Below, in pieces: positions 1 to 62,056 of a stretch of DNA of 64,000 nt. The notes under the pieces are model-generated. The model was not told where the DNA came from. It was given only the letters and a program-made list of their open reading frames with translations, and ran no database searches. Made by a program: the position numbers and the translations under genes. Each line of letters opens with the position of its first letter. The stretch's first letter is position 1. Source of the DNA: a virus; IMG/VR virus record IMGVR_UViG_3300021961_000070, positions 1 to 64,000 of that record. One strand, written 5' to 3'.

Positions 1-1310
1 CTACCCTGAAAACCAGGAACTCCAGGAGGTCCAGATCCACCTGCTGGTCCTTGTACGCCTTGGAAACCAGCGGTTACACCTTGTGGTCCCTGTGGACCTT
101 GAGTACCCTGTCTACCTTGAAAACCTGGGACACCTGGAGGTCCTGGTGATCCTGTTGGACCTTGTACGCCTTGAAACCCTGCTGTTGGACCAACAGGTCC
201 CTGTGGACCCTGAGTACCTTGAAAACCCTGGAATCCAGAAGTTGGTCCTTGAGCACCTTGTGGACCTTGAACTCCTTGTCTACCCTGAAAACCAGGAACA
301 CCAGGAGGTCCTGGTGATCCTGTGGGTCCTTGAGCACCTTGAAAACCAGTTGTTGGTCCTTGAGCACCTTGTGGACCTTGAGTACCTTGAAAACCTTGAA
401 AACCAGGAACTCCAGGAGGTCCAGGAGAACCCGTGGGTCCTTGAGCACCTTGGAAACCAGAAGTTGGACCAACAGGTCCCTGTGGACCTTGAGTACCTTG
501 AAAACCTTGGAATCCAGAAGTTGGTCCTTGAGCGCCTTGTGGACCTTGAGTACCCTGTCTACCCTGAAAACCAGGAACACCAGGAGGTCCTGGTGAACCT
601 GTTGGACCTTGTACGCCTTGGAAACCAGCGGTTACACCTTGTGGTCCCTGTGGACCTTGAGTACCTTGAAAACCTTGGAATCCAGAAGTTGGTCCTTGAG
701 CACCTTGTGGACCTTGAACTCCTTGTCTACCCTGAAAACCAGGAACACCTGGAGGCCCAGGAGGACCTATTGGTCCTTGTACGCCTTGGAAACCTGTTGT
801 TGGACCTTGAGCACCTTGTGGACCTTGAGTACCTTGAAACCCTTGAAAACCTGCTGTTGGTCCTTGAGCACCTTGGGGTCCTTGTACTCCTTGTCTACCC
901 TGAAAACCAGGAACTCCAGGGGGTCCTGGTGATCCAGTAGGACCTTGTGTACCTTGAAACCCTGTTGTTGGACCTTGAGCCCCCTGTGGGCCTTGTACAC
1001 CCTGAAATCCTTGAAAACCAGGAACACCTGAAGGTCCTGGAGATCCTGTCGGACCTTGTACCCCTTGAAAACCAGTTGTTGGTCCTTGAGCGCCTTGAGG
1101 TCCTTGAACGCCTTGGAATCCTTGGAAACCTGCTGTTGGTCCTTGAGCGCCTTGAGGTCCTTGAACGCCTTGGAATCCTTGGAAACCAGAAACGCCTGAA
1201 GGTCCTGGTGATCCTGTCGGACCTTGTACACCCTGAAATCCAGAATCGCCAGTTGATCCTAAAAGACCTTGAGCGCCCTGTGGTCCTTGAACTCCCTGCG
1301 GTCCTTGTGG
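1..1310 (-). repeat. Collagen Gly-X-Y coding repeat tract
   Basis: Nearly every codon triplet encodes Gly-X-Y, and longer blocks of roughly 130 bp recur with few changes (for example the block starting near 230 is repeated near 510 and 660). The tract keeps one open frame throughout. The other long frames seen here are by-products of the repeat. Such tandem DNA is prone to recombination that changes fibre length. Confidence 0.85.
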
Positions 1311-1418
1311 TCCTCTAATATTTGTAGTATCTCCAATCCAAACTGCATTAGATGCAACAACATCACTAATTTCAATTGTTAGTCCATTTTTAATTCTAAA
1401 ATTAGATGAAGTTGCCAA
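1..1418 (-). CDS. Collagen-like tail appendage protein (C-terminus outside window)
   Basis: The reading frame is open from a TTG start at 1418 to the window edge, giving at least 472 residues. The first ~34 residues (start MATSSNFRIKNGL) form a short cap that ends in AVWIGDTTNIRG. After it come near-perfect Gly-X-Y triplets (GPQ, GVQ, GFQ, GPT, GSP, GVP), arranged in a higher-order block of about 45 residues that repeats to the edge. Such tracts fold as trimeric collagen triple helices in phage fibres. The start is chosen because the same N-terminal pattern opens the next gene upstream (MANNSNFIIKTGL, also TTG), and AAAGG lies upstream at a suitable distance. No in-frame ATG precedes the collagen tract. 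It is the last visible gene of the fibre cluster. The C-terminal domain (perhaps a chaperone or receptor-binding tip) is not visible. Confidence 0.85.
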   Translation of the reverse strand, partial: MATSSNFRIKNGLTIEISDVVASNAVWIGDTTNIRGPQGPQGVQGPQGAQGLLGSTGDSGFQGVQGPTGSPGPSGVSGFQGFQGVQGPQGAQGPTAGFQGFQGVQGPQGAQGPTTGFQGVQGPTGSPGPSGVPGFQGFQGVQGPQGAQGPTTGFQGTQGPTGSPGPPGVPGFQGRQGVQGPQGAQGPTAGFQGFQGTQGPQGAQGPTTGFQGVQGPIGPPGPPGVPGFQGRQGVQGPQGAQGPTSGFQGFQGTQGPQGPQGVTAGFQGVQGPTGSPGPPGVPGFQGRQGTQGPQGAQGPTSGFQGFQGTQGPQGPVGPTSGFQGAQGPTGSPGPPGVPGFQGFQGTQGPQGAQGPTTGFQGAQGPTGSPGPPGVPGFQGRQGVQGPQGAQGPTSGFQGFQGTQGPQGPVGPTAGFQGVQGPTGSPGPPGVPGFQGRQGTQGPQGPQGVTAGFQGVQGPAGGSGPPGVPGFQG

Positions 1419-1424
1419 AATTTA

Positions 1425-3620
1425 TTACCTTTCTTTTATTTTATTTAACAGATCAGAAATTAATAACTGTTGCTCTTTAATCGCTTGTGTAATAATAGGT
1501 ATTAATTTTTCATATTGTACCGCTAAAAAGTTTTCGCCAGATATACTTTTATTTTTATCATCATCAAACGGAGCCCTCTTAACTACTTCAGGTACAGAGG
1601 TCTGTATTTGTTGAGCAATTAATCCAACCTTTCTAGAGTAATCTTTATAGCCATATTTTTCAGCTAATCTATTTTGTGTATAATATATTCCTGTCATACT
1701 TAATATTTTTTCTAAACAATTATCTATAACTCTTATTTTTGTTTTCAATCTTTCATCAGAATAACCGGCAGTAATATCACCAGATGCTCTTATTGATCCT
1801 GTCGGTCCTACTGCCGTATTGATTCCTAGTGCGGAAACATTTGGTGTTGATGTTGTTCCTTGAGGTCCTTGGGGTCCTTGAAAACCTGATGCATTCTGTG
1901 CTCCAACAGGACCTTGAACTCCTTGAGGACCTTGAGGACCAGAAACTCCTTGAAAACCAGAGACACCTGGAACGCCTGTTGATCCTGTTGAGCCTGTAGG
2001 TCCTTGAGGACCTTGAGCACCTGGTACACCTGTTGGTCCTGTAGGTCCCGCAAAACCTTGAAAACCTGCGACTCCAGGAACACCTGTTGGTCCTGTGGTT
2101 CCTGTTGGACCTTGAGGACCTTGAGCACCTGAAACACCTGTTGGCCCTGTAGGTCCCGCAAAACCTTGAAAACCCGAAACGCCTGGAACACCAGTAGGTC
2201 CAGGAAAACCTGGAACTCCTTGGAAACCAGAAACTCCTGGAACACCTGTTGGTCCTGTAGTTCCTGTTGGACCCTGCGGACCTTGAGCACCTGGTACACC
2301 TGTTGGTCCTGTAGGTCCCGCAAAACCTTGAAAACCCGAAATGCCTGGAACACCTGTTGGTCCTGTAGTTCCTGTTGGACCCTGCGGACCTTGTGCACCT
2401 GGTACACCTGTTGGTCCTGTAGGTCCTGGTACGCCTTGAAATCCAGAGACACCTGGAACACCAGTAGGTCCAGGAAAACCTGGAACTCCTTGAAAACCTG
2501 AAACACCTGGAACACCTGTTGGTCCTGTGGTCCCTGTTGGACCTTGAGGACCTTGAGCACCTGGTACACCTGTTGGTCCCGTTGGTCCTGGTACACCTTG
2601 AAAGCCTGGGACTCCAGGAACGCCTTGAGGTCCTGTCAACTGAAAAAAACCCTGAGGGCCTTGTGCACCTGGTACACCTGTTGGTCCTGTAGGTCCTGGT
2701 ACGCCTTGAAATCCAGAGACACCTGGAACACCAGTAGGTCCAGGAAAACCTGGAACTCCTTGAAAACCAGAGACACCTGGAACGCCTGTTGGTCCTGTGG
2801 TTCCTGTTGGACCTTGAGGACCTTGAGCACCTGGAACACCTGTTGAGCCTGTAGGACCTGCAAATCCTTGGAAACCAGAAATTCCTGGAACTCCTGTTGG
2901 TCCAGGAAAACCTGGAACTCCTTGGAAACCAGAAACTCCTGGAACACCGGTAGCTCCTGTAGGTCCTGTTGGACCTTGAGGACCTTGAGCACCTGATACA
3001 CCTGTTGAGCCTGTAGGTCCTGATACACCTTGAAAACCAGAAATGCCAGGAACACCGGTAGCTCCTGTAGGTCCTGGTACTCCTTGAAATCCAGAAACGC
3101 CAGGAACACCGGTAGCTCCTGTAGGTCCTGTTGGGCCTTGGGTACCTTGAGCACCTGGTACGCCTGTGGGTCCTGTAGGTCCTGGTACTCCTTGTAAACC
3201 AGAAACTCCTGGAACACCGGTAGCTCCTGTAGGTCCTGTTGGACCTTGAGGACCTTGAGCGCCTGGTACGCCTGTGGGTCCTGTAGGTCCTGGTACTCCT
3301 TGAAATCCAGAAACGCCAGGAACACCTGTCGGTCCTGTTGGTCCTGGTACGCCTTGAAAACCAAAGACACCTGGAACACCGGTAGCTCCTGTAGGTCCTG
3401 TTGGACCTTGAGGACCTTGAGCACCAGAAACGCCAGTAACGCCTTGAGGTCCTTGCGGGCCTTGTACGCCTTGAACTCCCGTTGAACCTGTGACTCCTTG
3501 AAATCCTGGGAAACCGACAATATTATTGCTTGGACCAATCCAATCACCAGCAGTATCAATGACTGTGGTTTCGTTTACTGCTAAACCAGTTTTTATTATA
3601 AAATTGGAATTGTTAGCCAA
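1425..3620 (-). CDS. Collagen-like fibre with C-terminal S74 intramolecular chaperone
   Basis: 731 residues. Residues 1-36 form a cap (MANNSNFIIKTGL... WIGPSNNIVG). Residues ~37-590 are Gly-X-Y collagen repeats rich in GPT, GVP, GFQ, GAQ and GPQ. Residues ~605-731 are a Peptidase_S74 / endosialidase-type chaperone: the YSDERLK motif (Ser ~621, Lys nearby) begins the domain, followed by GLIAQQIQ and VQYEKLIP and a terminal coiled coil. In this family the domain trimerises the fibre and cleaves itself off at the Ser. The collagen repeat is interrupted once (QGFFQLTGPQ). Start codon is TTG at 3620 with AAGGGG upstream; an ATG eight codons' length upstream is out of frame. The next gene starts 7 bases downstream, so the two collagen genes form one unit. 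Confidence 0.9.
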   Translation of the reverse strand: MANNSNFIIKTGLAVNETTVIDTAGDWIGPSNNIVGFPGFQGVTGSTGVQGVQGPQGPQGVTGVSGAQGPQGPTGPTGATGVPGVFGFQGVPGPTGPTGVPGVSGFQGVPGPTGPTGVPGAQGPQGPTGPTGATGVPGVSGLQGVPGPTGPTGVPGAQGTQGPTGPTGATGVPGVSGFQGVPGPTGATGVPGISGFQGVSGPTGSTGVSGAQGPQGPTGPTGATGVPGVSGFQGVPGFPGPTGVPGISGFQGFAGPTGSTGVPGAQGPQGPTGTTGPTGVPGVSGFQGVPGFPGPTGVPGVSGFQGVPGPTGPTGVPGAQGPQGFFQLTGPQGVPGVPGFQGVPGPTGPTGVPGAQGPQGPTGTTGPTGVPGVSGFQGVPGFPGPTGVPGVSGFQGVPGPTGPTGVPGAQGPQGPTGTTGPTGVPGISGFQGFAGPTGPTGVPGAQGPQGPTGTTGPTGVPGVSGFQGVPGFPGPTGVPGVSGFQGFAGPTGPTGVSGAQGPQGPTGTTGPTGVPGVAGFQGFAGPTGPTGVPGAQGPQGPTGSTGSTGVPGVSGFQGVSGPQGPQGVQGPVGAQNASGFQGPQGPQGTTSTPNVSALGINTAVGPTGSIRASGDITAGYSDERLKTKIRVIDNCLEKILSMTGIYYTQNRLAEKYGYKDYSRKVGLIAQQIQTSVPEVVKRAPFDDDKNKSISGENFLAVQYEKLIPIITQAIKEQQLLISDLLNKIKER
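1850..3520 (-). repeat. Second collagen Gly-X-Y coding repeat tract
   Basis: Tandem blocks encoding GPTGPTGVPGAQGPQ-type sequence recur about every 100-130 bp, some nearly identical (for example around 2240-2420 and 2690-2830). The sequence differs from the tract at 1-1310 in favoured triplets (GVP and GPT here, GVQ and GFQ there), so the two genes are paralogous in design but not recent duplicates. Confidence 0.8.
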
Positions 3621-3634
3621 GGTTCATTTTCCCC

Positions 3635-3656
3635 TTAACATATTTTAATATGTTAA
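3635..3656. other. Perfect AT-rich dyad between fibre genes
   Basis: A 10-base arm TTAACATATT at 3635-3644 and its exact complement at 3647-3656 flank two T bases. It covers the stop codon of the 1148-residue fibre gene and lies just before the start region of the collagen gene. It has few G:C pairs, so it is at best a weak terminator; mRNA processing or 3'-end protection are alternatives. Confidence 0.4.
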
Positions 3657-6600
3657 ACTGTTATTAGACTTCTCATTGCTTTAAATGTAGTTGTTGTTCC
3701 ATTTACTGGTGTAGCCAATATTCTGAATTGACCAGTAACTATCGAAGCATCAAATGTTGCAAGAGAGGTTCCAGTTTTTATTTCGCCATATTGAGCCAGA
3801 TAAACTGTAGTATCATCATGAACGAAACTTAGTTCAATTACATGATATGCTGTACCATTTGTAATTTGAATGAAGTATTTTCCAGAACGATAAGTCGATG
3901 CGCTGAAAAAATCCAAAATAAATTGTGATGTACTCGAAACTGATTGCTGAGTTGATTTAATATCTAATGATGTATTAACAGTAACATTGGTATTTGCAAC
4001 AAGTGAGGAACCCGTTAATGTTGAACTTGTAGTCAAAGCACCAGTCATTGTATCGCCAGCTTTTGCTACTTTTGCAATATTTACCGCACCAACATTAGCT
4101 TGATATCCATTAGTGACTATAATAAGACCAGCACCAACATTAGCCTCATAATTAGCCTTGGTTGTTATAAGGCCGGCACCAACGTTAGCTTCATAATTGG
4201 CCTTGGTTGTTATAAGTCCGGCGCCTACATTGGCTTGACTTGCCGCGGTATCGGCGATTCTGGCAGCACCAACATTTGCTTGATATGCATTCGTAACCGT
4301 TATAAGACCAGCACCGACATTGGCTTGAGATGTGGTTTGTATTGTATTCGCATAATCAAGAGGATCTAATCCTCTCAGCGTAATTACATTCGTTATAATA
4401 TTAGCACTTAAAGTTGCAACTCTTGTATTAGCAATATCAATAGTATTACCAGGTTCAGTTCCTGGTTTGTAACTGTCAAATAGGTAATATCTACCATCTG
4501 TAAATTTACGAATTAAACCAGTATGATTATTTGGTGTATTTGCATAATGACCAACAAAACCAATATCTAAAGTATCGGTTAGATTTTCAACACCAAGTTG
4601 AATAATCGTATCAGTGACTTTAAGTGATGAAACATTAATTGTTGTTGTATTGCCGGTAATTACAAGATTGCCAGTTATAGACAAGTCTCCAGAAATAGTT
4701 CCGCCAGTCTTATCAAGTTTTGTTAATAATCCAGCACCAACATTAGCCTCATAGTTAGCTTTTGTTGTTATAAGTCCGGCGCCAACATTGGCATCAGAAT
4801 CTAATTTATTTGAAATTAAACCTGCACCAACATTAGCCTCATAGTTAGCTTTTGTTGTTATAAGTCCGGCACCAACGTTGGCTTGCCCTGCTGCGGTATC
4901 AGTTATTCTTGCGGCACCAATATTTGCATAAAGACTATTGATATTATTGGTTAGATCGGTTCTAACACTTATTAAACCAGCACCGACGTTGGCTTGATAT
5001 GCGCCAGTAACCGTAATAAGTCCAGCACCGACGTTGGCTTGATATGCGCCAGTAACCGTAATGAGTCCAGCACCGACGTTGGCTTGACTTGCCGCAACAT
5101 CGGTAATCCTAGCAGAACCAACATTAGCATAAAGATCATTAACATTATTAGTTAAATCGGTTCTAACACTTATTAAACCAGCACCAACGTTAGCTTCATA
5201 ATTGGCCTTGGTTGTTATAAGTCCGGCGCCTACATTGGCTTGACTTGCCGCGGTATCGGCGATCCTGGCAGCACCGACATTGGCGTAGAGAGCATCTACA
5301 TCACCAAATAACTCTGCAATATCAACCTTTAAACTTATTAAACCGGCACCGACGTTGGCTTCCGAAACTGCTTTTGCCGATAACAATCCAGCACCAACGT
5401 TGGCTTGCGCCGCTGCGGTATCAGTTATTCTGGCCGCACCAACATTAGCGTAGAGAGCATCGACATTATTCGTTAAATCGGTTCTTACTGATATTAGTCC
5501 AGCGCCTACATTGGCTTGTCCAGAAGCAACATCAGCAATTCTAGCGGCACCAACATTAGCATATAGAGCATTGATGTTGTTGGTTAGATTAGTTGAAATT
5601 AGTAATAAACCAGCTCCAGTATTTCCTTGATGCCAAGTATTTGCAGTATCGGTATAATTTTTTGCATCAATTAATGCCGCACCAGTATTTGCTTGGCCTG
5701 ATGTAACATCCGTAATTCTAGCGGCACCAATGTTTGCATAAAGATTATTAACGTTATTGGTTAGATCAGTTCTAACATCAATCAAACCAGATCCAACATT
5801 AGCTTGGCTAGCCGCAACATCCGTAATTCTAGCGGCACCAATGTTTGCATAAAGATTATTAACGTTATTGGTTAGATCGGTTCTTACTGATATTAGTCCA
5901 GCGCCGACATTAGCCTGAGATGCATTCGTGACTGCTATATCTCCGGCGCCTACGTTAGCAGTTGTCGCAATTATGTATTGATCGGTATTATCTTTTAAAA
6001 CCCAATAATCATTCGTTTCATCATAGCGAATGTATACGTTTGAACCACCTCTATTGACAGTTATTCCTGCATTTTGAGTTGGAGTAACTCCTTCTTGCCA
6101 ATTTGAATTTAAAATAATTTCATTATCAGAAACATTTAATTCTGTAGTATTAATTGAAGTTACATTTCCTGTTACCGACAGATTGCCAGTGATTGTAACA
6201 TCACCACTTACCGTTCCACCAGATGAACTAAATCTTGTGTTAGCAAAATTATAAGCTGAATTTGCCCAAGAATATGCTAGATTTGCTTGATCAAAAGAAG
6301 AATTTGCTAAATCGGAAATACCTTTTAATCCAGGCGAATCTGAATTTGGTAAAACTAGATCGGTCGCTCCAGCAATAGAAATAGTACCTGATGTATTTCC
6401 TAATACTATACCACCAAGATTTATGGAACCTGGACCAACATAAATTGAATGCCAACGATTTGTTTCTGATCCGAGAAAGTAAACGTTATCAGTAGTCGGA
6501 AGAACATTTCCTGTAATATCGAGATTACCAGAAATTGTTCCGCCCGTTTTAGGTAAGAAAGTATTATCTGTATAATTTTTTAGATTAGTATTGGCTACAT

Positions 6601-7099
6601 CAACATAGTTCTTTAAGTTTGTGTTGGCAGTTGTTACTAAATTATCGGTGTAATTTTTTAGATTAGTATTAGCAGTTTCAGTGTCGATTCTTAAATCGCC
6701 GACATTAGCTTCATAATCGTTTCTAACAGAAATTAAACCAGCACCAACGTTAGCTTGATATGCACCCGTAACACTGATTAGACCGGCACCAACGTTAGCT
6801 TGTCCTGAAGTAACGGCGGAATTGGCAGCATCAAAAGCCTGCTGTGCTAAAATATTTGCTGAATTGGCTTTATTGAATGCTAAATTTGCTTGATCGAAGG
6901 CAGAATTAGCTTTACCTAAAGCTGCGGCAGCACCAGCAGAAGAACCTTGTTCTAGTGCTAGAGGGAAACCTCCAGGTGTTACGCCATCATGAACAACTAT
7001 AGTTTTCTTATCTGTGTCTACAGTAACTTCAGCAATAACACCAGTAAATACTGATGTCTGTGCTGTATTACCTCTTCTTAGTTGTAACTGGGTTGCCAT
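3653..7099 (-). CDS. Long tail fibre with QANVGAGLI repeats
   Basis: 1148 residues. The N-terminus (MATQLQLRRGNTAQTSVF ... VVHDGVTPGGFPLA) is the common phage fibre cap that attaches to other tail parts. Residues ~60-1000 are dominated by a short repeat of the form QANVGAGLI-x(1-6) alternating with RTDLTNNVNxLYANVGAARI, interrupted by two fibre modules of the type SGDVTITGNLSVTGN...INVSSLKVTDTIIQLG. The last ~120 residues are a non-repetitive β-rich tip (DIKSTQQSVSSTSQFILDFF...). Repeats like these build long trimeric β-structured or coiled fibres. There is no S74 domain. A late-promoter-like box (7123-7130) lies 24 bases upstream of its ATG. The function as host-binding fibre is inferred from architecture and position. 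Confidence 0.8.
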   Translation of the reverse strand: MATQLQLRRGNTAQTSVFTGVIAEVTVDTDKKTIVVHDGVTPGGFPLALEQGSSAGAAAALGKANSAFDQANLAFNKANSANILAQQAFDAANSAVTSGQANVGAGLISVTGAYQANVGAGLISVRNDYEANVGDLRIDTETANTNLKNYTDNLVTTANTNLKNYVDVANTNLKNYTDNTFLPKTGGTISGNLDITGNVLPTTDNVYFLGSETNRWHSIYVGPGSINLGGIVLGNTSGTISIAGATDLVLPNSDSPGLKGISDLANSSFDQANLAYSWANSAYNFANTRFSSSGGTVSGDVTITGNLSVTGNVTSINTTELNVSDNEIILNSNWQEGVTPTQNAGITVNRGGSNVYIRYDETNDYWVLKDNTDQYIIATTANVGAGDIAVTNASQANVGAGLISVRTDLTNNVNNLYANIGAARITDVAASQANVGSGLIDVRTDLTNNVNNLYANIGAARITDVTSGQANTGAALIDAKNYTDTANTWHQGNTGAGLLLISTNLTNNINALYANVGAARIADVASGQANVGAGLISVRTDLTNNVDALYANVGAARITDTAAAQANVGAGLLSAKAVSEANVGAGLISLKVDIAELFGDVDALYANVGAARIADTAASQANVGAGLITTKANYEANVGAGLISVRTDLTNNVNDLYANVGSARITDVAASQANVGAGLITVTGAYQANVGAGLITVTGAYQANVGAGLISVRTDLTNNINSLYANIGAARITDTAAGQANVGAGLITTKANYEANVGAGLISNKLDSDANVGAGLITTKANYEANVGAGLLTKLDKTGGTISGDLSITGNLVITGNTTTINVSSLKVTDTIIQLGVENLTDTLDIGFVGHYANTPNNHTGLIRKFTDGRYYLFDSYKPGTEPGNTIDIANTRVATLSANIITNVITLRGLDPLDYANTIQTTSQANVGAGLITVTNAYQANVGAARIADTAASQANVGAGLITTKANYEANVGAGLITTKANYEANVGAGLIIVTNGYQANVGAVNIAKVAKAGDTMTGALTTSSTLTGSSLVANTNVTVNTSLDIKSTQQSVSSTSQFILDFFSASTYRSGKYFIQITNGTAYHVIELSFVHDDTTVYLAQYGEIKTGTSLATFDASIVTGQFRILATPVNGTTTTFKAMRSLITV
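4086..5950 (-). repeat. Tandem repeat coding QANVGAGLI / YANVGAARI units
   Basis: A 27-30 bp unit (minus-strand sense caagccaatgtnggngcngg) occurs many times, with local near-identical copies separated by short variable linkers such as atcggttctaacacttatta. Copies are in frame within the fibre gene, so unit gain or loss would change fibre length without breaking the frame. Confidence 0.75.
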
Positions 7100-13400: not shown

Positions 13401-16322
13401 ATTAGTATCTCTTAGTTGCCATTTTTTATTGATTTCATCCCAACGAATATCTGCATCAACATTATCTAAATCTTGAACTGCGGCATTACCTGTTCCGCTG
13501 AAATTAACTAGAGTAGGATAACCAGCAACAGTAGAAACTTTAAATGAATTAGTATCAACTGTAGTAATTCTATATGTTGTACCATTCGCTAAACCAGTTA
13601 TGCCAGTGCTAAGTGATGTAATTCTAACATTTTGACCATTAGTAAAACCGTGCCCGTTCATTGTGATGATATCAGTAGTGCCATTCAAGGCTACTAGTGA
13701 AACAGGTGTATTTGCTCTATTAACTGTTATGTAATCATAACCTGAGCCTATTGCCTGTTTAGTTACGGCCATCAATTTGATTCGATTTGTATCGATCAGT
13801 GATGCTCCAGTAACAGTAAAATCTCCACCAACAGTTAAACCACCAGTGATAGAGGCAGAAGCTATTGTAGTTGCGCCGGTTATACTAATTGGACTTGCGA
13901 TGGTTTGAGAAGAAGCGGAGCTAAGTTTTACAAATGTCGAATCTGAGTAATTTTTTAAGTTAGTATTAGCAGTAGTTACTAGAGTATCAGTATAATTCTT
14001 AAGGTTAGTATTAGCGGTAGTTACTAGATTATCGGCATAATTTTTAAGATTGGTATTTGCTGTATCAACATAATTCTTAAGATTTGTGTTAGCCGTATCA
14101 ACATAATTCTTGAGATTGGTATTGGCAGTAGTTACTAGATTGTCGGTATAATTCTTAAGATTCGTATTGGCCGTATCAACATAATTCTTGAGATTAGTAT
14201 TGGCTGTAGTTACTAGATTGTCGGTATAAAGTTTAAGATTCGTATTAGCCGTATCAACGTAGTTTTTAAGATCCGTATTAGCCGTATCAACGTAGTTTTT
14301 AAGATTCGTATTAGCCGTATCAACGTAGTTTTTAAGGTTAGTGTTGGCCGTAGTTACTAGATTGTCGGTATAAAGTTTAAGATTTGTGTTGGCCGTATCA
14401 ACGTAATTCTTGAGATTGGTATTGGCCGTATCAACGTAGTTTTTAAGATTTGTGTTGGCCGTATCAACGTAATTCTTGAGATTGGTATTGGCCGTATCAA
14501 CGTAGTTTTTAAGGTTAGTGTTTGCGGTAGTTACATGATTAACCGTAGGAGCTAAAGTTGTACTTGTTCCTCCCAATGTGTCTTCTAATTGCGTAACGCC
14601 TGTTTGAGTAGTTGATGCTGAACGTATTGTTGTATTCGTAACACTTGTAATATGTCCCGTAGAATTTATTATAATTACTGGTATTTGTATTGAAGTTCCG
14701 TGTGTGGCTGCGGTGACTCCAGAGGAATCGTGAGAAATTGCCAAAGCACCAGTAGCAGCATTCAGTGTTGTGGAAATCGGAGCAGTTGCGGATGCGGTTC
14801 TTGCAACTCTATTTCCATTATCATATAAAGCATTACCATGAATGTTCGAACTGACGGCTAAACCACCATTAATTTTTAATGCGCCTACAGATGTTTTGCT
14901 AGTGGATTCTAGTCCACTTCCGACAGTTAAATTTCCAGTGATTGTACCATTTCCATATAATGACAATGAACCATTGGCTCCACCATTCGCAGTATTTGCG
15001 GCATTAATAACTAAATTGCCTGCGCTATTGGTAGTTAAAGAAGAATCTCCAAGTACAATAGAAACTGTATTGTTTACAGCACCAGAAGCATCACCTTTTA
15101 CTGTGACATTACCAGAAATAAAAGCAGACTTGGAAACACCCAAACCGCCAGAAGTTATGATTGCTCCGACAGTATTGGATGTCGTTTCTGTTGTTGATGT
15201 AAATCTACCACTTGGAGCAACCGCTGATGTTGAAGCAACAAAATGTGCTGCTGTAGAATTTGCTGTAACTCTGGAACTATTCGATACGATAGATTCTGAA
15301 GCAACAAAATGAGCACCGGTTGTGTTAGCAGTGATTCTAGCATTATCGGCTACAACAGAACCAGATGCAACAAAATGAGCACCAGTTGTGTTAGCAGTGA
15401 TTCTAGCATTATCGGCTACAACTGAATTTGTAGCATTTAAGTCTGTGACATGAATATTGGCAGAAACTCCAAGACCGCCAGTAACAACAATTGCACCTGT
15501 GGTCTTACTCGTAGAAACTAGTCCACTTCCTACTGCTAGATTTCCAGTTATTGTTCCATTACCCTGTAAAGTCAAGGAACCATTTGCACCACCGTTTGCG
15601 GTGTTTGCGGCATAGATGTAAAGGTTACCTGCGGAATTCGCAACTAAATCACCAAGCAATAAAGAAACTTTACTATTTACGGTACTTTGAGCATCACCTT
15701 TTACTGTGACATTACCGGAAATGAATGCAGATTTAGAAACACCTACACCGCCAGCAACAAAAGCGGCTCCAGAAATATTTGATGTCGTTTCTGTCGTGTC
15801 ATTAACTCTTAAAGAACCTGTTGAAGTTGCATTTGCTGTAGTTAAATTTCCTGCTGTAGTATTACCTGTTATGACGGCGATACTATCAACAATTAAGTTG
15901 CCTGATTGTGTAGTGCCAGAAACAGTTACATTTGTATTTGTTGTAATATTATTGGTTGTTAACGTTTGAGTAACTTGTAAATCATTATTTACGGTCACAT
16001 TGTTTGCAACATATAGTGCTGTTCCACGACCATAAATGAAAACATTAGCACCAACAGTCAAGTTACCTGTTGCCGATCCTTCCGAGCCTAGCGATATATT
16101 TCTACCTACTGTGATATTAGAAGAGAAAAGAGCAGTATTTGATACCGTTAATGGAGTACCTTCTGCGGTTATCGCTAAGGTGGCGGTATTCGATACTATT
16201 AAAGTACCAGAAATTTTATTAAAATTGCCGGTTTCTAATTGATTAACAGCATTAGCTGATTGATTGGTCTGAATTCTCCATTCATCAACTGTGTTTACTC
16301 TAGTAATATTTTGTATAGGCAT
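10446..16322 (-). CDS. Giant tail fibre with TANTNLKNY repeats and S74 chaperone
   Basis: 1958 residues. N-terminus MPIQNITRVNTVDEWRIQTNQSANAVNQLE is the attachment region. The shaft contains modules of the NITVTGN / GALKVTGGISTQ type and three clusters of an 11-14 residue repeat (TANTNLKNYVD, TANTNLKLYTDNLVT), probably coiled-coil or helical linkers. A triplicated module (residues ~1290-1720) with STTTGALKVTGGIST...GTTGVFDTGVRVA recurs. The end (residues ~1858-1958) is an S74 chaperone: YSDDKLK, GFYYRPND, VGLSAQEVQKVLPEVV and VQYEKIVPLL, then a terminal coiled coil. S74 domains trimerise fibres and release themselves by autoproteolysis at the Ser of the YSD motif. Probably the long host-recognition fibre. 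Confidence 0.85.
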   Translation of the reverse strand: MPIQNITRVNTVDEWRIQTNQSANAVNQLETGNFNKISGTLIVSNTATLAITAEGTPLTVSNTALFSSNITVGRNISLGSEGSATGNLTVGANVFIYGRGTALYVANNVTVNNDLQVTQTLTTNNITTNTNVTVSGTTQSGNLIVDSIAVITGNTTAGNLTTANATSTGSLRVNDTTETTSNISGAAFVAGGVGVSKSAFISGNVTVKGDAQSTVNSKVSLLLGDLVANSAGNLYIYAANTANGGANGSLTLQGNGTITGNLAVGSGLVSTSKTTGAIVVTGGLGVSANIHVTDLNATNSVVADNARITANTTGAHFVASGSVVADNARITANTTGAHFVASESIVSNSSRVTANSTAAHFVASTSAVAPSGRFTSTTETTSNTVGAIITSGGLGVSKSAFISGNVTVKGDASGAVNNTVSIVLGDSSLTTNSAGNLVINAANTANGGANGSLSLYGNGTITGNLTVGSGLESTSKTSVGALKINGGLAVSSNIHGNALYDNGNRVARTASATAPISTTLNAATGALAISHDSSGVTAATHGTSIQIPVIIINSTGHITSVTNTTIRSASTTQTGVTQLEDTLGGTSTTLAPTVNHVTTANTNLKNYVDTANTNLKNYVDTANTNLKNYVDTANTNLKNYVDTANTNLKLYTDNLVTTANTNLKNYVDTANTNLKNYVDTANTDLKNYVDTANTNLKLYTDNLVTTANTNLKNYVDTANTNLKNYTDNLVTTANTNLKNYVDTANTNLKNYVDTANTNLKNYADNLVTTANTNLKNYTDTLVTTANTNLKNYSDSTFVKLSSASSQTIASPISITGATTIASASITGGLTVGGDFTVTGASLIDTNRIKLMAVTKQAIGSGYDYITVNRANTPVSLVALNGTTDIITMNGHGFTNGQNVRITSLSTGITGLANGTTYRITTVDTNSFKVSTVAGYPTLVNFSGTGNAAVQDLDNVDADIRWDEINKKWQLRDTNNLNDTTAYSNILTANLISDSVSLDSSNNLASSKAVKTAQDNLTTANTNLKNYVDTANTNLKLYTDNLVTTANTNLKNYTDTLVSTANTNMKNYVDTANTNLKNYTDNTFLKLTAASQTITGSLIISQDLTVSGTTTLINSNEVNIADNEIVLNSDWPVNSLPTQNAGITIHRGQLANSPNVFIRYDNQNNYWVVAENATQGIISTRNYVDTANTNLKNYTDTLVSTANTNLKNYTDTLVSTANTNLKLYTDNLVTTANTNMKNYVDTANTNVTNSISTKVSKAGDTMSGVLAITDSTAATSTTTGALKVTGGISTQVSLWSANVVSTGPVYGTTGVFDTGVRVASSTLGNAPISTNLAANGRVTVSHDTSGVTATTYGSNIAVPVFVVNATGHVTAVTNTTIRPASTTQTGVTQLEDAVNSTSTTTAAVPNSVKSANDNANGRVSKAGDTMSGALAISDSTNATSTTTGALKVTGGISTQVSLWSANVVSTGPVYGATGVFDTGVRVASSTLGNAPISTNLAANGRVTVSHDNSGVTATTYGSSINVPVFVVNATGHVTAVTNTAIRSGTTSATGIVQLEDSVTSTSTTTAATPNSVKSVKDSISNNVIKVIAGTGLSNTDGTFGLNQGSDKTITISHSDTSALSAGFLGLTGPFPSGVTSAITDIEIDNFGHINAASASYVSLSNHNHDSTYVNVTGDESMSGALSITNSTAATSTTTGALKVTGGISTQASLWSANVVSTGPVYGTTGVFDTGVRVARSASGTAPITATLTSGAIAVSHDNSGVSAANYGGAATVPVFTVNATGHVSYAGNVAISIASGAVSGLATSATTDTSNATNITTGTLAAARLGTTGQPQFDSLGVGTAASGISGEIRATGDISAGYSDDKLKIKLSNISNALDKVSELTGFYYRPNDLAQSLGYNDKVQVGLSAQEVQKVLPEVVVPAPVDSTFLTVQYEKIVPLLVEAIKELKTELDEIKSRLKD
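12589..12785 (-). repeat. Short tandem repeat coding TANTNLKNY units (cluster 1)
   Basis: Near-identical 39-42 bp units (minus sense taagtacggccaatacc and variants) repeat within the giant fibre gene. Identical copies sit side by side at ~12665-12750. A second cluster lies at ~13085-13275. Confidence 0.7.
13945..14530 (-). repeat. Short tandem repeat coding TANTNLKNY units (cluster 3)
   Basis: The longest cluster: about 15 units of 36-45 bp encoding TANTNLKNYVD, TANTNLKLYTDNLVT and TANTDLKNYVD. The unit sequences are alternately reused (gtatcaacgtagtttttaag / gtatcaacataattcttgag), indicating expansion by unequal recombination of unit pairs. Confidence 0.75.
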
Positions 16323-16555
16323 TATTCTTTACTCTGTTTCAGCAATGAGTTTAGTAAGTCTTTTATCTCTTTCATATCGGAAGAAAGATCGTCAACCTTC
16401 ATTTTAAGGTTATTTATCTCTTGATCCTTACCCTTAAGTTTTTCCGCCATCTTTTTTCTAGCCTCATTTTCTAAAATAGCACTCTTAGATGTCATCAAAA
16501 GGGCGCCGGTATTCATGTCTTTTACGAAATTTGTACCTTCAACTTTTACTTTCAT
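16322..16555 (-). CDS. Small coiled-coil structural protein
   Basis: 77 residues. N-terminal MKVKVEGTNFVKDMNTGALLMTSKSA is the signature of a small conserved protein found beside fibre genes in aquatic T4-like phages. Residues ~27-75 are a coiled coil (KLKGKDQEINNLKMKVDDL). Its stop overlaps the giant fibre start by one base (shared A of TAATG), so translation is coupled. It may chaperone or cap the fibre; function not established. Confidence 0.6.
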   Translation of the reverse strand: MKVKVEGTNFVKDMNTGALLMTSKSAILENEARKKMAEKLKGKDQEINNLKMKVDDLSSDMKEIKDLLNSLLKQSKE

Positions 16556-16558
16556 AAA

Positions 16559-19500
16559 TTAATCCGCAGGAAGAGCAATCACCCTCAAATCTTTCACTCT
16601 AGGTATTACCGCAGGATCAGAAGAGGTCAATACAATTTTAATTGAAAATGTCTTAAACGTATCATATGTAACACCCGAAATGGATGTGTAAGTCACATAA
16701 TTGTCTGTGATCGATGGTCTATATTCAAATTCAGTAAACTCAGTTGGCGATTTTGAAGGAACTGGACTTGGATTAATTAAAGTCATTTTTTGATATGGTC
16801 TATCTTTAAATGTTGTAGAATCAAATTGACTTAATAATTTATAATATATGTGAACTTCTGTTCCTTGTGGTTTGTTTGCAGAAAGATAAACACGCAGATC
16901 GCCAGCATCAAAACCATCAGCTAAAACAATTGGTTTTGTTATGTACCTAGCATCGCAAGGTCCACCAGATTCATCAAATTCGCTGTTAATGACAATACTT
17001 GCATTTGATGAAACTGTGTCTGAATTTCCGACAACTGGGTATAATATTGTAAAATCATCTGTATAACCAGAACCACCAGAATCAACGTATATAGAAAGAA
17101 CATTTCCATTTACATCAACTTTGGTCTCTACATTAGCAGAGGTTCCACTTGAGCTAACGACAATTACACTATTAGCATTAGTATATCCCCGACCCTGATC
17201 AATTATGGTAAAATCTTCAGAACTTATTTTTGCATTGTCAATAAAATTTTCCCAAACATTCAAATATAAATGTTGTAAAGAAACGACAGGAGAAACATGA
17301 TCCGTCGTTGTAGATAATATTAATTTTACCTTGAAATCGCCATGACTTGTAAGTTTTCTTCTTCTATTACCCACAGAATACTTTTGAGATTGTCCGTATT
17401 CATAAACTTCATGCGGAGAAATTTCTTCATATTCGGTTTCTTTTAATCCATTGGCTAATGTTGTAATTATCGAATAGTTTGTAAGTGCGACATCATTGGT
17501 AAAATTAGTTATTTCATTGGTCAACAAACGCAATCTATCAACATTGAATGAAAGTCCAGGATCCGTTAGAAGATTTGGTATATTTGTTCCTGGCTTTTCT
17601 GTATCAAAAACATAAGTTGCTGTAGATGATGTTGAGAATGAACATCTATTAATTCTAAACATCAAATCTTCATTAATAAATGGAACGTATTCCATTGTAT
17701 TTTGAGATTTATACAGAGTTCCCATATATGGCTGAGATGCAACATATTCATTATTTCTAGTTGTTGATCCTTTTTCAGCGACCCAAACAGAGTAATCTGG
17801 AGAATCTGTAATTATAACTAGAGCATATAATCCAGGTTTTAGATAAACTGGCGAATAAAATTTAAAGTTTGTTGCAGTCGAAGAAACGCCTAGAGAAGGT
17901 GTCTCTGAAGTTTTAACGTCTGATGGGTATAAAACAGATACCGATTCGGGATACCAAAAGTCTGAACTTGGTGATCCGTTTACGGTAGGCCTTATTTGAA
18001 CAGATACAGGAAGATTTTCATCATCTTTGGCTCTGAAGAAGAGGTCAACGCTATCTAAAAATAACCCATTAGGATAAACGGCTTCATCAACAAAGAAAGT
18101 TTGTGCTAAAGGATCTACTGCAAATTCACCGACTTCTGTTCTCGACGTTGTAGAAAGAACTCTATCACTCGTTAACTGTCCAAGAATTCTATTTTCAATA
18201 CCGACATTTAATACAGTATCAACTAAAGTAGTTTTTCTTACAGTTAATCCTGTAGATGTATATATGGTATCTGCAAATGATATCGAATCTGCATCATAAG
18301 TATTGTTGAAAGATTCTGTAACCCTAAAATTTCTCTGTCCAGAACGGAATGTTCCCGGTCTCATAAAGAAATAACCATTTAAACGACCGAAACGATCCGT
18401 TTTATTTTTTCCAATGCTATACAGAAACTTACCTGTTTTATTTGGTGTACCACTTAAAGTTGCAGTTCTAGTGGATCCATTATAAGCAGTAATAGTAAAC
18501 TGTTCATTGACCCAAGTATTCGGATCTGAAGTCTCTCTCATCAAAATATTAATTGTATTTGCATTATAATAGTTATTCACACTCGATGAATCTCTTGTTG
18601 TTCCTCCATATATTCCAGAAGTGGAGTCTCCAAGAACAATTGTATTTCCTACTACAAGACCATAACCAGCTCGGTGATTAACTGATGTTACTGTGAAAGC
18701 GCGACCAGATTCGACGCCATATAAACTAAGACCATTCATATCATACTGAGTAAATATTGTTGCAGTATTCGATGAAGAATCACTAAAACCAGCCGCTGCC
18801 CAGCCGATTCCTGTATTTCCTGGATTAGCTCTATATGAAGCGAGTTTATGGTTTAATGTTCCGGCGTTGTCATAAATGATTATTTTTTCGCCAGGTATAA
18901 ATTTAGGTAAATTGAAAGCTGGACCACCGGTAGTTGTAGTCAATAAAACTTCATTACCTAAATAAATGCTATCCTCGACATTTTTATCATCAAAGAAATG
19001 ATAAAATGTCGTATTTGGTCTTAACTGTTGTGCTGAGAAAAATATGCCAGTTTGCTTCATATAAGGCTGAATAGCCAAATCGCTAACAAACGATCCAACA
19101 TCTACTTGTGATGCTGATGTTGAAAATTGTTGTCCAGATATTTGTGTTCCAGCAGCAATAACATTATTAATTGAAGTTGTAGTGGCACTTTCCCATATAC
19201 CCGATCTTCTTCCATTAATCACAACACCATTATTAAAATCAGTTATTTGCGTTTCTGTTGTCGAAACTGCGACTCTTTGCTGAAACCAATCTTGACTTGA
19301 TATTTGAGCAAAAGGATTATTTCTATCTGTTAGCCAGTCAGTATCATTTAATGCTTGATATTGAATCAAACTATTAATTGCATTGAATGCTTGGTTTATA
19401 CCCTGTGTTGAATTTAGTGTAACTCTAGCAGTTGTACTTGTATCGACATTTCCTTCAAACTCAGGAAATAAAGAAACTTTTCCTTTAAAGTTAGCAAAAA

Positions 19501-45269: not shown

Positions 45270-46001
45270 TTATCTTGGAGTTTTCCAAACAACTGGATGA
45301 AATGGTGCTTTCTCATGTTCTGGTCTATCCTCTGTGTAATAATACAATGCCAAAGAATACCTGTCAACACCTTGAGGGGTATTTAGTGGGTGAGGATGAC
45401 CATGAAAAGCATCATCAGTGATTCTAAAAATTATAGCACGATTGAATATTGGTTTGACTTGAACGCAACATTTGCTCATGTCTTTTTCCCAAAGTTCGAG
45501 ATTGCCACCCCATTGATCTTGCCAATTCTCATTCAAATAAATCAGCATATTCAATCTACGATGAAGATTATTTTTAAACTGAATATTGAAATCTGCATGT
45601 ATACCTAATTTACCCCCAGTCAAAACACGATGAACGCCACCACCCAAAAACGTATCATCGCCAATCAGTGTTTTTATGCCTGTAAGTTTTTCTAAAAAAT
45701 TTAATGTATCCGAACTATTCAAATAGTCTAAAGTAAATTTTGTGATTGGGCAATCTCTGTTCAGAGCATTTAGAGTAGAAAGATCAAAGACATCTGGTGT
45801 ATAATATTTGTTTATTTGATAATCTTTTACTTCATCAGTTGTATCACAAGACCAATGCTGATACTGTTTTAATTCTTCAACGATCCTTTTTGCAACAAAC
45901 TCATTTAAAAAATTATCTATGACAACATAAGGAAAAGGGTATGCAGAATCATAGTTGACTTTTAAAGAGTCAGACAAATTCAGTACGGTTTGATTTATCA
46001 T
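45270..46001 (-). CDS. 2OG-Fe(II) oxygenase, prolyl-4-hydroxylase type
   Basis: 243 residues from ATG 46001 (a TTG four codons upstream is possible). Iron ligands H135-x-D137 in GIHADFN and H200 in DDAFHGHPHPL; 2-oxoglutarate binding R214 in DRYSLALYYYT. The order and the F-x-x-L-N-W-GG-x-L-x-L-W block (YLNENWQDQWGGNLELWEKD) are those of the P4H-like family. Uses O2, Fe(II) and 2-oxoglutarate to hydroxylate a protein or small substrate. It overlaps the end of the RecB-like gene. With two collagen-like fibres in this genome, prolyl hydroxylation of them is a possible role, but not shown. Confidence 0.85.
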   Translation of the reverse strand: MINQTVLNLSDSLKVNYDSAYPFPYVVIDNFLNEFVAKRIVEELKQYQHWSCDTTDEVKDYQINKYYTPDVFDLSTLNALNRDCPITKFTLDYLNSSDTLNFLEKLTGIKTLIGDDTFLGGGVHRVLTGGKLGIHADFNIQFKNNLHRRLNMLIYLNENWQDQWGGNLELWEKDMSKCCVQVKPIFNRAIIFRITDDAFHGHPHPLNTPQGVDRYSLALYYYTEDRPEHEKAPFHPVVWKTPR

Positions 46002-50257: not shown

Positions 50258-50845
50258 TTAAAGTATTTGATCGGCTACACCTAGTTGCACCAATTCTTCA
50301 GCAGACATCCAAACATCGCTCGGTGTAAGTAGCTTTGTTTTAACCCGACTTTCGGTCATGCCAGTGGCATCCTGAAGAATTTTCATCATTCTTTTATTTG
50401 TTAATTCTGCCTCTTTGGCAAATGATTTGAGGTCATGATGTTTACCTTCATAAACATCCGTATACTGATGGCACATTATTCCACAATTTCTTGTGATATA
50501 ACGATGACCTCTTTCACCAGAAGCAAAGATGAGAAATGCCGCTGACATAACAGCACCAATACCAATAGTGTGTATTGGATTGTTACTAAGTCTCATGACA
50601 TCTATCAAACCTAAAGCTTGATACAAATCTCCTCCAATAGAATTAACATATAATTTTAATACTTTATTATTAGTATTCTCTTGGGTGTTTTCGTAAATAA
50701 TCCACTGAATCGTTTTGTTGATGTTTATCTCATCGATCTCACCATACAAAAAGTGTACATTATTATTTAAAAAACAATTGTCTAGTTTATCTTGTACGGT
50801 AAAAGAAATATCCTTTTCATCGGGATCTTTTCTTCTCCCACTCAT
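50258..50845 (-). CDS. clpP: ClpP-like serine protease
   Basis: About 195 residues from ATG 50845; an in-frame ATG at 50887 is also possible and neither has a clear SD. VHFLYGEIDEININKTIQWIIYENTQ, LKLYVNSIGGDLYQALGLIDVMR, HTIGIGAVMSAAFLIFASGERGHRYI (catalytic Ser), CGIMCHQYTDVYEGKHHDLKSFAKE (His) and LLTPSDVWMSAEELVQLGVADQIL (Asp) give the full ClpP Ser-His-Asp set. Phages use such proteases for protein processing, for example head maturation, or to act with host Clp ATPases. Overlaps galE. Confidence 0.88.
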   Translation of the reverse strand: MSGRRKDPDEKDISFTVQDKLDNCFLNNNVHFLYGEIDEININKTIQWIIYENTQENTNNKVLKLYVNSIGGDLYQALGLIDVMRLSNNPIHTIGIGAVMSAAFLIFASGERGHRYITRNCGIMCHQYTDVYEGKHHDLKSFAKEAELTNKRMMKILQDATGMTESRVKTKLLTPSDVWMSAEELVQLGVADQIL

Positions 50846-51761
50846 AGGCAGATTTAATGATTGAATCGATTTTGTGTTGTGGTTCATAATTTAACAATTC
50901 TTTAGCAAGAGTTATATCAGCAACAAGACGACTTGGATCGCCTTCTCTCCTGGGAGCAATCTGATAATTTAATTTTAGTCCGATTTCCTTCTCGATAATA
51001 TCTATAATTTCTAAAACAGAGTAACCTTGTCCAGATCCTAAATTTACAATTACATTCTCTTTATTATCATCAAGATATTTTACTGCTTCAATATGAGCAT
51101 TCACTACATCTGAAACATGTACATAATCTCTTATGCACGTTCCATCGGGAGTATCATAATCATTACCATATATTTGAAAACTATTTAGATTTTGAAGAAT
51201 TCTAGGAATCAGGTGAGTTTCTGGCTCATGATTTTCACCTAAATTATCATCTGCTCCGGCCAAATTGAAGTATCTGAAGATCACAAAATCCAGACCAGAA
51301 TCTTCAATAGCATATTCGCAGGATAATTTTGTATTTGAATATACGGAATTGTTTGTGGTCGCTTCATCTTCAGGAATCATAATTCCGCTAGAAAAATAAA
51401 CACCGGCAGTAGAAGAAAAAATAATTTTGTTGACGCCATGCTTTTTCATGGCATTCAATACAATCAAAGTTCCACCGACGTTCACTTCCCAAAACTCAGT
51501 AGGATTCTTTTCAGATTCACCAACTTCAATTCTACCAGCTAGATGAAAAACGACATTGATATTTTCCTCAGAAAAAACGGTATTTACCATTTCTCGATTC
51601 AGTATATCATCTATAATAAGAGAATCGAAGTAAGTATGTGTTGGAGGTTTTTTGTCATATACGACGACCCTCCAGCCTTCTTTTTTAAGTTTTTTGCTTA
51701 GAAAAGAACCGAGATACCCGGCCCCACCCGTAACGAGTGCGGTTCTGATGTTTTCTTCCAT
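50817..51761 (-). CDS. galE: UDP-glucose 4-epimerase-like (extended SDR)
   Basis: 314 residues. NAD-binding TGGAGYLGS (11-19), SST (116-118) and catalytic Y141-x-x-x-K145 (VYSNTK). FRYFNLAGADDN, HLIPRIL, YGNDYDTPDGTCIRDYVHVSDV and RREGDPSRLVADITLAKELL are GalE-specific. Interconverts UDP-glucose and UDP-galactose, supplying sugars for glycan or DNA/virion glycosylation. Overlaps the glycosyltransferase gene by 64 bases at its start and the ClpP-like gene at its end; together they form a sugar pair. Confidence 0.88.
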   Translation of the reverse strand: MEENIRTALVTGGAGYLGSFLSKKLKKEGWRVVVYDKKPPTHTYFDSLIIDDILNREMVNTVFSEENINVVFHLAGRIEVGESEKNPTEFWEVNVGGTLIVLNAMKKHGVNKIIFSSTAGVYFSSGIMIPEDEATTNNSVYSNTKLSCEYAIEDSGLDFVIFRYFNLAGADDNLGENHEPETHLIPRILQNLNSFQIYGNDYDTPDGTCIRDYVHVSDVVNAHIEAVKYLDDNKENVIVNLGSGQGYSVLEIIDIIEKEIGLKLNYQIAPRREGDPSRLVADITLAKELLNYEPQHKIDSIIKSAYEWEKKRSR

Positions 51762-52456
51762 GGTAAAATTCCATTATAACGTTCTAGATTTGCTTCGTTG
51801 CCTTTTTCAAAAAACTCTTTACTGACTGAGTTAGGATTTCCATCAAGCCTATAACATAAAGAATGATTCATTGAACAATCATATTTCGGAAAATATTTGC
51901 TAAGATTGAAAAAGAATTTTCTATCTGCACCCCATTGTCCATACCAAGAATGACCAATTCGAGTAGCAACATTCTGCTTTACGGCGAAACTGGAAGTATC
52001 AATATGATATTGATCTTCAGAAAAATAAATGGGCCATTTTCCCAGAGATTCGCAATTATCTTCACACAGATAATTGCCTTCTTTATCATAAATTTTTCTA
52101 AAACTATAGGCCCAATCTAAATTTTCTTCAGTAATAATTTTGACAAGACTTTCTACATGATCTTTTTCGAACCAATTGTCTTCATCAAGATAAAAAATAA
52201 TATCAGCATTCACTAAAAAAGAACATGCAGCATAGACTCGGTGACCATACCATCCTTTTCCAATGTTCTCTTCGAGTCGGATGGTTTTAATCCTGGATGC
52301 TCCCTCTAACTGGCGCCAAATTTTATTTCCATATTGTTTCTCACCATCTAAGAAAATATAATGAGTAAGATTATCATATGTTTGTTCATCTATACTTTGG
52401 ACACAATCAGAAAGATATCGTGTGCCAATAGTGGGAGTTACAACTGCAACTTTCAT
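51698..52456 (-). CDS. Family 2 glycosyltransferase
   Basis: 252 residues. GT-A start MKVAVVTPTIGTRYLSDCVQSIDEQTYDNLTHYIFLDG; nucleotide-sugar/metal motif ADIIFYLDEDNWFEKDHVESLV (DED). The region EENIGKGWYGHRVYAACSFL follows the GT-2 fold. Acceptor unknown: could be virion protein, host surface glycan or DNA. Starts at ATGA overlap with the previous gene and runs into galE by 64 bases, so both are produced together. Confidence 0.82.
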   Translation of the reverse strand: MKVAVVTPTIGTRYLSDCVQSIDEQTYDNLTHYIFLDGEKQYGNKIWRQLEGASRIKTIRLEENIGKGWYGHRVYAACSFLVNADIIFYLDEDNWFEKDHVESLVKIITEENLDWAYSFRKIYDKEGNYLCEDNCESLGKWPIYFSEDQYHIDTSSFAVKQNVATRIGHSWYGQWGADRKFFFNLSKYFPKYDCSMNHSLCYRLDGNPNSVSKEFFEKGNEANLERYNGILPWKKTSEPHSLRVGPGISVLF

Positions 52457-59897: not shown

Positions 59898-60434
59898 TTA
59901 ACTATAGTGAAGACAACTCATCATAATATACTTATCATTGTCTGTCGGTGTTTCACCTGAATGAGGAAACATCCAAAACGGAGGAAACATAATCATACTT
60001 CCTTGTTTTGGTTTGAAAGACAATCCTAGATTAGGAAAAGTTGTACATCCATTGTTATCATTTAAATACAAAATAAAAATCAAATATCGAACTGCCGAAT
60101 CTTTATCATCAACATCAACATGAGTTTTGAATTTATAATCTGATCCTTTCAGATATTTTTTGATGCGTACATTTTCAAAACCTCGAATCTTAACATAAGG
60201 TTCAACACTCAACAAACTAATATAATTTTTCAGATATGGTACGACCTGTTGTATAAATGCTTTCGCTAAAAGTTGATTGCCAGATGTATTTAAATCTAAC
60301 TGATCAAACTTGTAATGCTCATTATCGTATTGAGTGATATGTGAACGATTGTTCTCAAATTCTTGGATTATTCGTTCGCAAGTTTGGGGGCTCAATACAT
60401 TTTCATAATGTTTGACAAAAGATTTAAGTTCCAT
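59898..60434 (-). CDS. 2OG-Fe(II) oxygenase, prolyl-4-hydroxylase type
   Basis: 178 residues. Iron ligands H105-x-D107 (KTHVDVDD) and H158 (MFPHSGETP), 2OG ligand K168 (NDKYIMMSCLHYS). SFVKHYENVLSPQTCERIIQEFE, RIKKYLKGSDYKFKTHVDVDD, YLIFILYLNDNNGCTTFPNLGLSFKPKQGSMIMFPPFW form the complete P4H-like fold; the YLNDNN-GC-T-F-P and P-K-x-G-S-M-I-M-F-P blocks are diagnostic. It is a lone protein gene inside the tRNA array. Candidate substrate: the collagen-like fibres or host proteins; unknown. Confidence 0.88.
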   Translation of the reverse strand: MELKSFVKHYENVLSPQTCERIIQEFENNRSHITQYDNEHYKFDQLDLNTSGNQLLAKAFIQQVVPYLKNYISLLSVEPYVKIRGFENVRIKKYLKGSDYKFKTHVDVDDKDSAVRYLIFILYLNDNNGCTTFPNLGLSFKPKQGSMIMFPPFWMFPHSGETPTDNDKYIMMSCLHYS

Positions 60435-61178: not shown

Positions 61179-61254
61179 TGGCCGGTCCTGAGAGAATCGA
61201 ACTCCCGTCTCCTCGTTCGTAGCAAGGGATTCTAATCCATTGAACTAAGGACCG
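61179..61254 (-). tRNA. tRNA-Arg(ACG)
   Basis: Acceptor CGGTCCT/AGGACCG, anticodon loop CTACGAA (ACG), T-loop TTCGATT, encoded CCA. Its 5' 23 bases overlap the end of the DUF3445-like gene on the same strand. Confidence 0.93.
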
Positions 61255-61972: not shown

Positions 61973-61981
61973 AATATCTCC

Positions 61982-62056
61982 TGGTGGTTCAAAGTGGTAA
62001 CGCTCCACTCTCCTCGGCTTATGAAACCGGTACGCATCTTTCTACGTCATTGAACC
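61982..62056 (-). tRNA. tRNA-Met-like (CAU) with aberrant D- and T-loops
   Basis: 75 bases fold as a cloverleaf: acceptor GGTTCAA/TTGAACC, D-stem ACGT/GCGT, anticodon CGGT-TTCATAA-GCCG, T-stem AGTGG/CCACT, CCA encoded. The D-loop (AGAAAGAT) has no GG and the T-loop is AGCGTTA instead of TTCRANN, so the usual D-T loop contact is absent. Could be a degenerate or specialised tRNA. Confidence 0.7.

Follow-up and report, generated by a model that had tools for sequence, protein, structure and literature searches.

We have analysed a 64-kb stretch of viral DNA (the window), which comprises the first 64 kb of the 70,647-base IMG/VR record IMGVR_UViG_3300021961_000070 (G000) and carries two genes for collagen-like fibres, P0003 and P0004, at its left end. 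A previous sequence-only reading had pointed to these genes and to two oxygenases of the prolyl 4-hydroxylase (P4H) fold, dependent on 2-oxoglutarate (2OG) and Fe(II), in the same genome (P0001 and P0002), and had raised the idea that the phage hydroxylates its own fibre. Comparison with related phages suggests that P0003 and P0004 probably belong to a conserved fibre-modification locus, the enzyme half of which would lie outside the record.

Collagen-like tail fibres at the edge of the record

The left end of the window is a T4-like tail module on the minus strand, which runs from baseplate wedge and hub genes through repetitive tail/fibre genes to P0003 and then P0004 (Table 1). Both are genuine collagen-like genes, as had been claimed, with long Gly-X-Y (GXY) tracts that score above the curated PF01391 threshold, and they encode tail fibres of an aquatic myovirus of the T4-like type (Kyanoviridae-related). 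P0003 (730 aa from a TTG start) consists of a short N-terminal cap, about 179 GXY triplets and an S74 intramolecular chaperone, and it matches phrog tail fiber families. P0004 (472+ aa) also has a TTG start, and its reading frame is still open at the first base of the record; the gene, previously given as 1-1418, is thus truncated by the record edge, and for this reason the genes that follow it are not visible in G000. Over the 179 triplets of P0003 and the 141 of P0004, the Y position is occupied by Pro in 23.5% and 16.3%, by Thr in 34% and 15% and by Gln in 27% and 62%, respectively, and by Lys in none.

Table 1. Features of the window discussed in the text
Feature	Position	Strand	Match or remark
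P0004, collagen-like fibre	3-1418	-	PF01391 185.3 bits, E 1e-55; orthologue of last cluster collagen
P0003, collagen-like fibre	1425-3620	-	PF01391 285.8 bits, E 6e-87; S74 chaperone at C-terminus
Peptidase_S74 domain of P0003 (residues 620-680)	1578-1760	-	PF13884 42 bits
Repetitive tail/fibre protein upstream of collagens	3653-7099	-	phrog_9648 tail protein, N-terminal 49 residues only
P0001 (OxA), 2OG-Fe(II) oxygenase, protein-prolyl-hydroxylase-like fold	45270-46001	-	PF13640 69.6 bits
Nucleotide-sugar epimerase/dehydratase, possible sugar-donor source	50817-51761	-	PF01370 157 bits, PF16363 124 bits
GT2-family glycosyltransferase	51698-52456	-	PF00535 37.3 bits
P0002, phrog_61-type cyanophage 2OG oxygenase	59898-60434	-	PF13640 32.7 bits

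An enzyme cassette behind the collagens of related phages

Record-wide searches of relatives for collagen and PF13640 first revealed oxygenases directly behind the collagens. The genes form a single-strand cassette in the order three collagen fibres, OxC, OxB, GT1, sometimes OxA, GT2 and then head-tail connector genes, and this order is kept across dozens of contigs. It is found, without OxA, in IMGVR 3300042453_003817 and IMGVR 3300042402_005186, whose baseplate genes are 77% and 80% identical to that of the window and in which OxC and OxB have 190 and about 240 aa, whereas IMGVR 3300042691_019551 has the same cassette plus OxA between GT1 and GT2. Junctions are short or overlapping, with a collagen-to-OxC gap of 14 bases in 3300042453_003817. 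The N-terminus of P0004 is identical at 32 of 45 positions to the last collagen of the relatives G002 and G011, against 14-24 for other collagens, and in all three of its closest orthologues among the sequences compared the next gene is OxC. As P0004 is therefore the orthologue of the last collagen, the enzyme half of the cassette is predicted just beyond the start of the record. One further phage contig (L180/L181; G025, 14843-18099) has a run of three different P4H-type oxygenases adjoining several collagen-rich proteins.

We then sought OxB, OxC and GT1 in IMG/VR by sequence alone, counting each distinct gene that had 5 kb or more of upstream sequence and taking as control the open reading frames (ORFs) of loci picked by their baseplate gene. 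Of the OxB genes 20/32, and of the OxC genes 35/47, are preceded on the same strand by a collagen at no more than 3 kb, compared to 4/313 control ORFs; for 19 OxB and 34 OxC genes the distance is at most 1 kb. After thinning at 65% identity the association was retained (OxB 12/16, OxC 14/20), with Fisher p-values of about 1e-15 and 6e-17 that indicate an order of magnitude only, because most seeds were taken from loci with a linked collagen and related loci do not count as independent. Among the baseplate-anchored relatives, five records have both collagen and oxygenase, three collagen only, one oxygenase only and eight neither; this points in the same direction (about p 0.04, one-sided, calculated by hand), on fragments and related records. 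Most relatives are in fact fragments, and the comparison sets in general are phylogenetically non-independent. It should also be noted that tblastn with a collagen query matches the S74 domain only, as low-complexity masking hides the GXY tracts.

The HxD...H...R motif is invariant in OxA, OxB, OxC and the DUF6445 domain of GT1. This last protein (model pLDDT, predicted local distance difference test, 90.9) combines a SunS-like peptide glycosyltransferase, tetratricopeptide repeats (TPR) and a 2OG oxygenase domain: residues 1-323 resemble the SunS enzymes (Z 20.8) and residues 384-569 an OGFOD1/PHD2-like oxygenase (OGFOD1 Z 14.2 over 161 residues), with a double-stranded beta-helix fold and the triad invariant in 55 sequences, so that DUF6445 can be counted among the 2OG oxygenases. 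No GT1 relatives were found in a bacterial genome collection at the sensitivity used. GT2 of the cassette is a glycosyltransferase plus methyltransferase. Existing annotation (phrog_1644; S-SSM7 YP_004324316.1) calls DUF6445 (L175:12651-14357; L449:10001-10507) a 'minor coat protein', yet it has the fold and the motif of a 2OG oxygenase. A stand-alone DUF6445 oxygenase also occurs in the freshwater isolate Synechococcus phage DSL-LC02 (L450; OR032571.1 40969-51199), where three collagen-like fibres adjoin it together with a mannosyltransferase-annotated gene and a FkbM methyltransferase + radical SAM/SPASM protein; this locus is a candidate for a further fibre-decoration locus.

Lysyl-hydroxylase-type enzymes beside lysine-rich phage collagens

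The search with OxC also led to the cultured cyanophages S-CAM9, S-PRM1 and S-8S53, in which a GXY-tract fibre is followed by a 124-128 aa protein, two oxygenases and then a protein of ~615 aa composed of Glyco_transf_25, GT_PLOD and a C-terminal lysyl-hydroxylase (LH) domain. The best solved match of the first part is procollagen galactosyltransferase 1 (COLGALT1, 1e-19); the second matches PF25342 (7.5e-47), LH3 (5e-33) and mimivirus R699 (9dyt, 4e-32), and the third matches LH3 and the LH domain of mimivirus L230 (6ax6, 1e-8). We have found this three-domain protein in eleven phage records. In L459 and L463 no collagen is present in the short stretch covered, and the L458 stretch begins just upstream of the LH protein. 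In L463 (MH319756.1, single-cell marine virus AG-345-L05) the three-domain protein is followed by a shorter GT25/PLOD copy. The fusions (L446:9555-11396, which is NC_031922.1 34413-36254; L447; L448; L462:9926-11695) are annotated as hypothetical protein or 2OG oxygenase, and phrog_61 lumps them together with small oxygenases such as P0002.

The cyanophage collagens beside this protein read GPKGEKGQKG..., with Lys at 37-44% of Y positions. Two further lineages with the three-domain enzyme also show Y-Lys, an environmental relative (18%) and Roseobacter phage CRP-6 (26%), a 45-kb phage without T4-like annotation, whereas Y-Lys reaches at least 10% in only 8/246 other phage collagens. Three records among these eight gave no PF25342 match, and Y-Lys does not, therefore, always imply the enzyme. 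Enzyme type and Y residue nevertheless covary, and this is the best evidence here that collagen is the substrate. Judged by its genes, the S-CAM9 type combines GT25, GT_PLOD and LH beside a Y-Lys collagen, as would be expected of an LH3/L230-type system. In the window phage, there is no PF25342 in G000, an incomplete record, and no Y-Lys in P0003 or P0004.

All these data suggest that tailed phages are likely to have hydroxylated, glycosylated collagen tail fibres whose enzymes are encoded right behind the fibre genes, in at least two systems. One would be the three-domain PLOD3/COLGALT1 homologue acting on Y-Lys collagens, and the other a phage-restricted cassette of OxC, OxB, the GT-oxygenase fusion and the GT-methyltransferase acting on Lys-free collagens such as those of the window. 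In the second, the small 2OG oxygenases would hydroxylate side chains of the fibre during virion assembly, GT1 and GT2 would attach sugars to the hydroxylated side chains and methylate those sugars, and the decorated triple-helical fibre could be stabilised, protected or altered in receptor binding. In the parallel version of the cultured cyanophages and CRP-6, a single GT25, PLOD-type GT and lysyl-hydroxylase protein would act on Lys-rich collagen. Hydroxylation plus glycosylation of phage collagen is well supported by genomics, and bacteriophages probably do modify their own collagen.

Target residues, alternative explanations and known systems

Several observations weigh against this proposal. 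The cassette itself is absent from this record, its presence in this phage being inferred from relatives. OxB-linked collagens such as L268 and L302 are essentially without Pro, and 18 OxB loci have no collagen although 2.5 kb or more can be read upstream of them. Several of those examined are glycan islands (sulfotransferase, cytidylyltransferase, glycosyltransferases, methyltransferases), so OxB may act on other targets. Finally, in T4-like phages the fibre region is known as a hypervariable cluster for host recognition, in which glycosyltransferases of the lipopolysaccharide (LPS) type are collected as well (PMC7029224).

An alternative is that the cassette acts on glycans of the host or the phage (LPS/capsule, superinfection exclusion), its adjacency to fibres reflecting an insertion hot-spot only. 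For glycosyltransferase genes in the host-recognition cluster of marine T4-like phages the usual reading is LPS modification (PMC7029224), some of the OxB-GT1-GT2 sets are found in sulfation/glycan islands that have no collagen, and enzymes like P0001 occur widely among bacteria, where GT2-type genes are recurrent neighbours at some loci. However, most loci have an immediate same-strand junction with collagen genes, the glycosyltransferase domain of GT1 has its nearest matches among peptide glycosyltransferases and shares a polypeptide with a protein-hydroxylase-like domain, and the Lys content of the collagens follows the lysyl-hydroxylase-type enzyme. We regard a glycan target as unlikely. 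At L238, L253, L254 and L305, OxB-GT1-GT2 occur without collagen beside sulfotransferases, cytidylyltransferase/mannose-6-phosphate isomerase, methyltransferases and an APS-kinase-like (adenylylsulfate kinase-like) protein, where a phage-encoded sulfated glycan is possible. Streptomyces phage KimJongPhill (L452:3990-6463), also without collagen, has an OxB-like oxygenase, a glycosyltransferase, a methyltransferase and a second glycosyltransferase in a four-gene run.

A second alternative is the original version of the idea, in which P0001 and/or P0002 are the prolyl hydroxylases of P0003 and P0004. Both enzymes are intact, as had been stated, with complete facial triads and PF13640 matches above the curated cutoff, and Y-Pro is plentiful in the two fibres. 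The AlphaFold (AF2) model of P0001 (pLDDT 95.6) is closest to the protein prolyl hydroxylases Tpa1/OGFOD1 (Tpa1 Z 23.0 over 223 residues) and PHD2 (Z 19), and its HxD...H...R site is invariant across the OxA family; on this model P0001 is a protein-prolyl-hydroxylase-like enzyme. Three other phages carry an orthologue of P0001 inside the fibre cassette, between GT1 and GT2, and one more orthologue, which is truncated, lies beside GT2. The nearest PDB sequence to P0002 (site HVD...H...K) is the Bacillus anthracis P4H, a weak match (E 8e-4).

However, both genes are more than 40 kb from the fibres, and the cassette already supplies dedicated oxygenases. P0001, which has no PHROG match, is flanked by a PDDEXK exonuclease on one side and a cell-wall hydrolase on the other; hundreds of bacterial genomes carry relatives of it, and collagen was found at 0/80 of the bacterial loci. 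The OxA clade (100/100 support) includes both cassette and non-cassette placements, which are not separated within it. Homologues of P0002 are present in 433 phage records, mainly of Synechococcus myophages, many of them beside uvsX; no link to fibres was found (collagen linkage 0/45 ORFs in P0002 loci), and BLASTP gave no kinship with the S-CAM9 lysyl hydroxylase, though both fall in phrog_61. Going by homologues and gene context, P0002 is an ordinary cyanophage oxygenase, and we rejected it as a fibre hydroxylase. The linkage to collagen expected of a collagen P4H is thus missing for both enzymes in the window, and only a minority of OxA genes are linked. The genomic evidence makes P0001 and P0002 weak candidates rather than the best ones, and their role as the fibre hydroxylases seems improbable. 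The idea of a phage hydroxylating its own collagen is well supported by genomics in this lineage and in others, although through the oxygenases and glycosyltransferases directly downstream of the fibres in relatives and not through these two agents. Least probable is a role of the oxygenases as auxiliary genes of metabolism or DNA modification with no relation to collagen, since this leaves the OxC/OxB/LH gene order and the Y-Lys covariation unexplained, even though cyanophage 2OG oxygenases are usually tied to nitrogen/2OG metabolism or DNA repair (PMC3037559), a good fit for P0002.

The 'prolyl' target of the previous reading is not supported either. Y-Pro ranges from 0 to 32% across cassette loci, and the cognate collagens of OxB and OxC do not always offer Pro: it is 0% at X and Y in L268, 0% at Y and 1% at X in L302, and 2-3% in L358/L419. 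We have thus rejected Pro as the general substrate and, as P0003 and P0004 lack Lys, also Y-Lys as the substrate in the window lineage. It is possible that Thr, Gln or the non-collagenous caps are the targets there.

Viral collagen modification is already known from mimivirus, which likewise has collagens plus their hydroxylating and glycosylating enzymes, L230 (lysyl hydroxylase-glycosyltransferase) and R699 (collagen glucosyltransferase). The phages described here are, however, tailed bacteriophages with the genes beside their tail fibres; the S-CAM9 type fuses GT25, GT_PLOD and LH, and the window lineage differs in its enzyme set, its collagens having no Y-Lys. The same three domains are homologous to those of human LH3/PLOD3 and COLGALT1, which in animals are separate, endoplasmic reticulum-located proteins instead of one, and in the alignment the phage LH domain has Lys in place of the 2OG-binding Arg. 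GT1 shares the fold of the SunS/ThuS glycocin glycosyltransferases (Z about 20), which are peptide-glycosylating, but has the TPRs and the C-terminal DUF6445 domain in addition. Tpa1/OGFOD1 ribosomal prolyl hydroxylases and HIF-PHD, the closest in fold to P0001, are only about 20% identical to it. In Bacillus anthracis a P4H-family enzyme accompanies the BclA collagen (PMC8968730), whereas P0002 is unlinked to fibres. A Baltic Sea study mused that tail collagen might be a substrate of viral P4HA, but called its use cryptic (PMC9301287). In the open-licence literature we found no report that connects the collagens of phages to these cassettes or to homologues of PLOD/COLGALT.

The hydroxylation and glycosylation of collagen are regarded as traits of animals, with giant viruses as the exception, and the collagens of bacteria and phages as largely unmodified. 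With a complete hydroxylysine-galactose-glucose enzyme set in cultured cyanophages, this view would be open to a direct test by mass spectrometry. If the proposal is correct, part of the many 2OG oxygenases and glycosyltransferases of aquatic phages that lack an explanation would gain a function. The proposal also bears on the origin of the PLOD/COLGALT domains and would offer compact enzymes for the production of modified collagen.

Finally, the window also encodes, at 61232-62008 on the minus strand, a protein similar to HODM_asu (haem-dependent oxidative N-demethylase alpha subunit; PF11927, 68.8 bits) with no PHROG match, which is odd for a phage.

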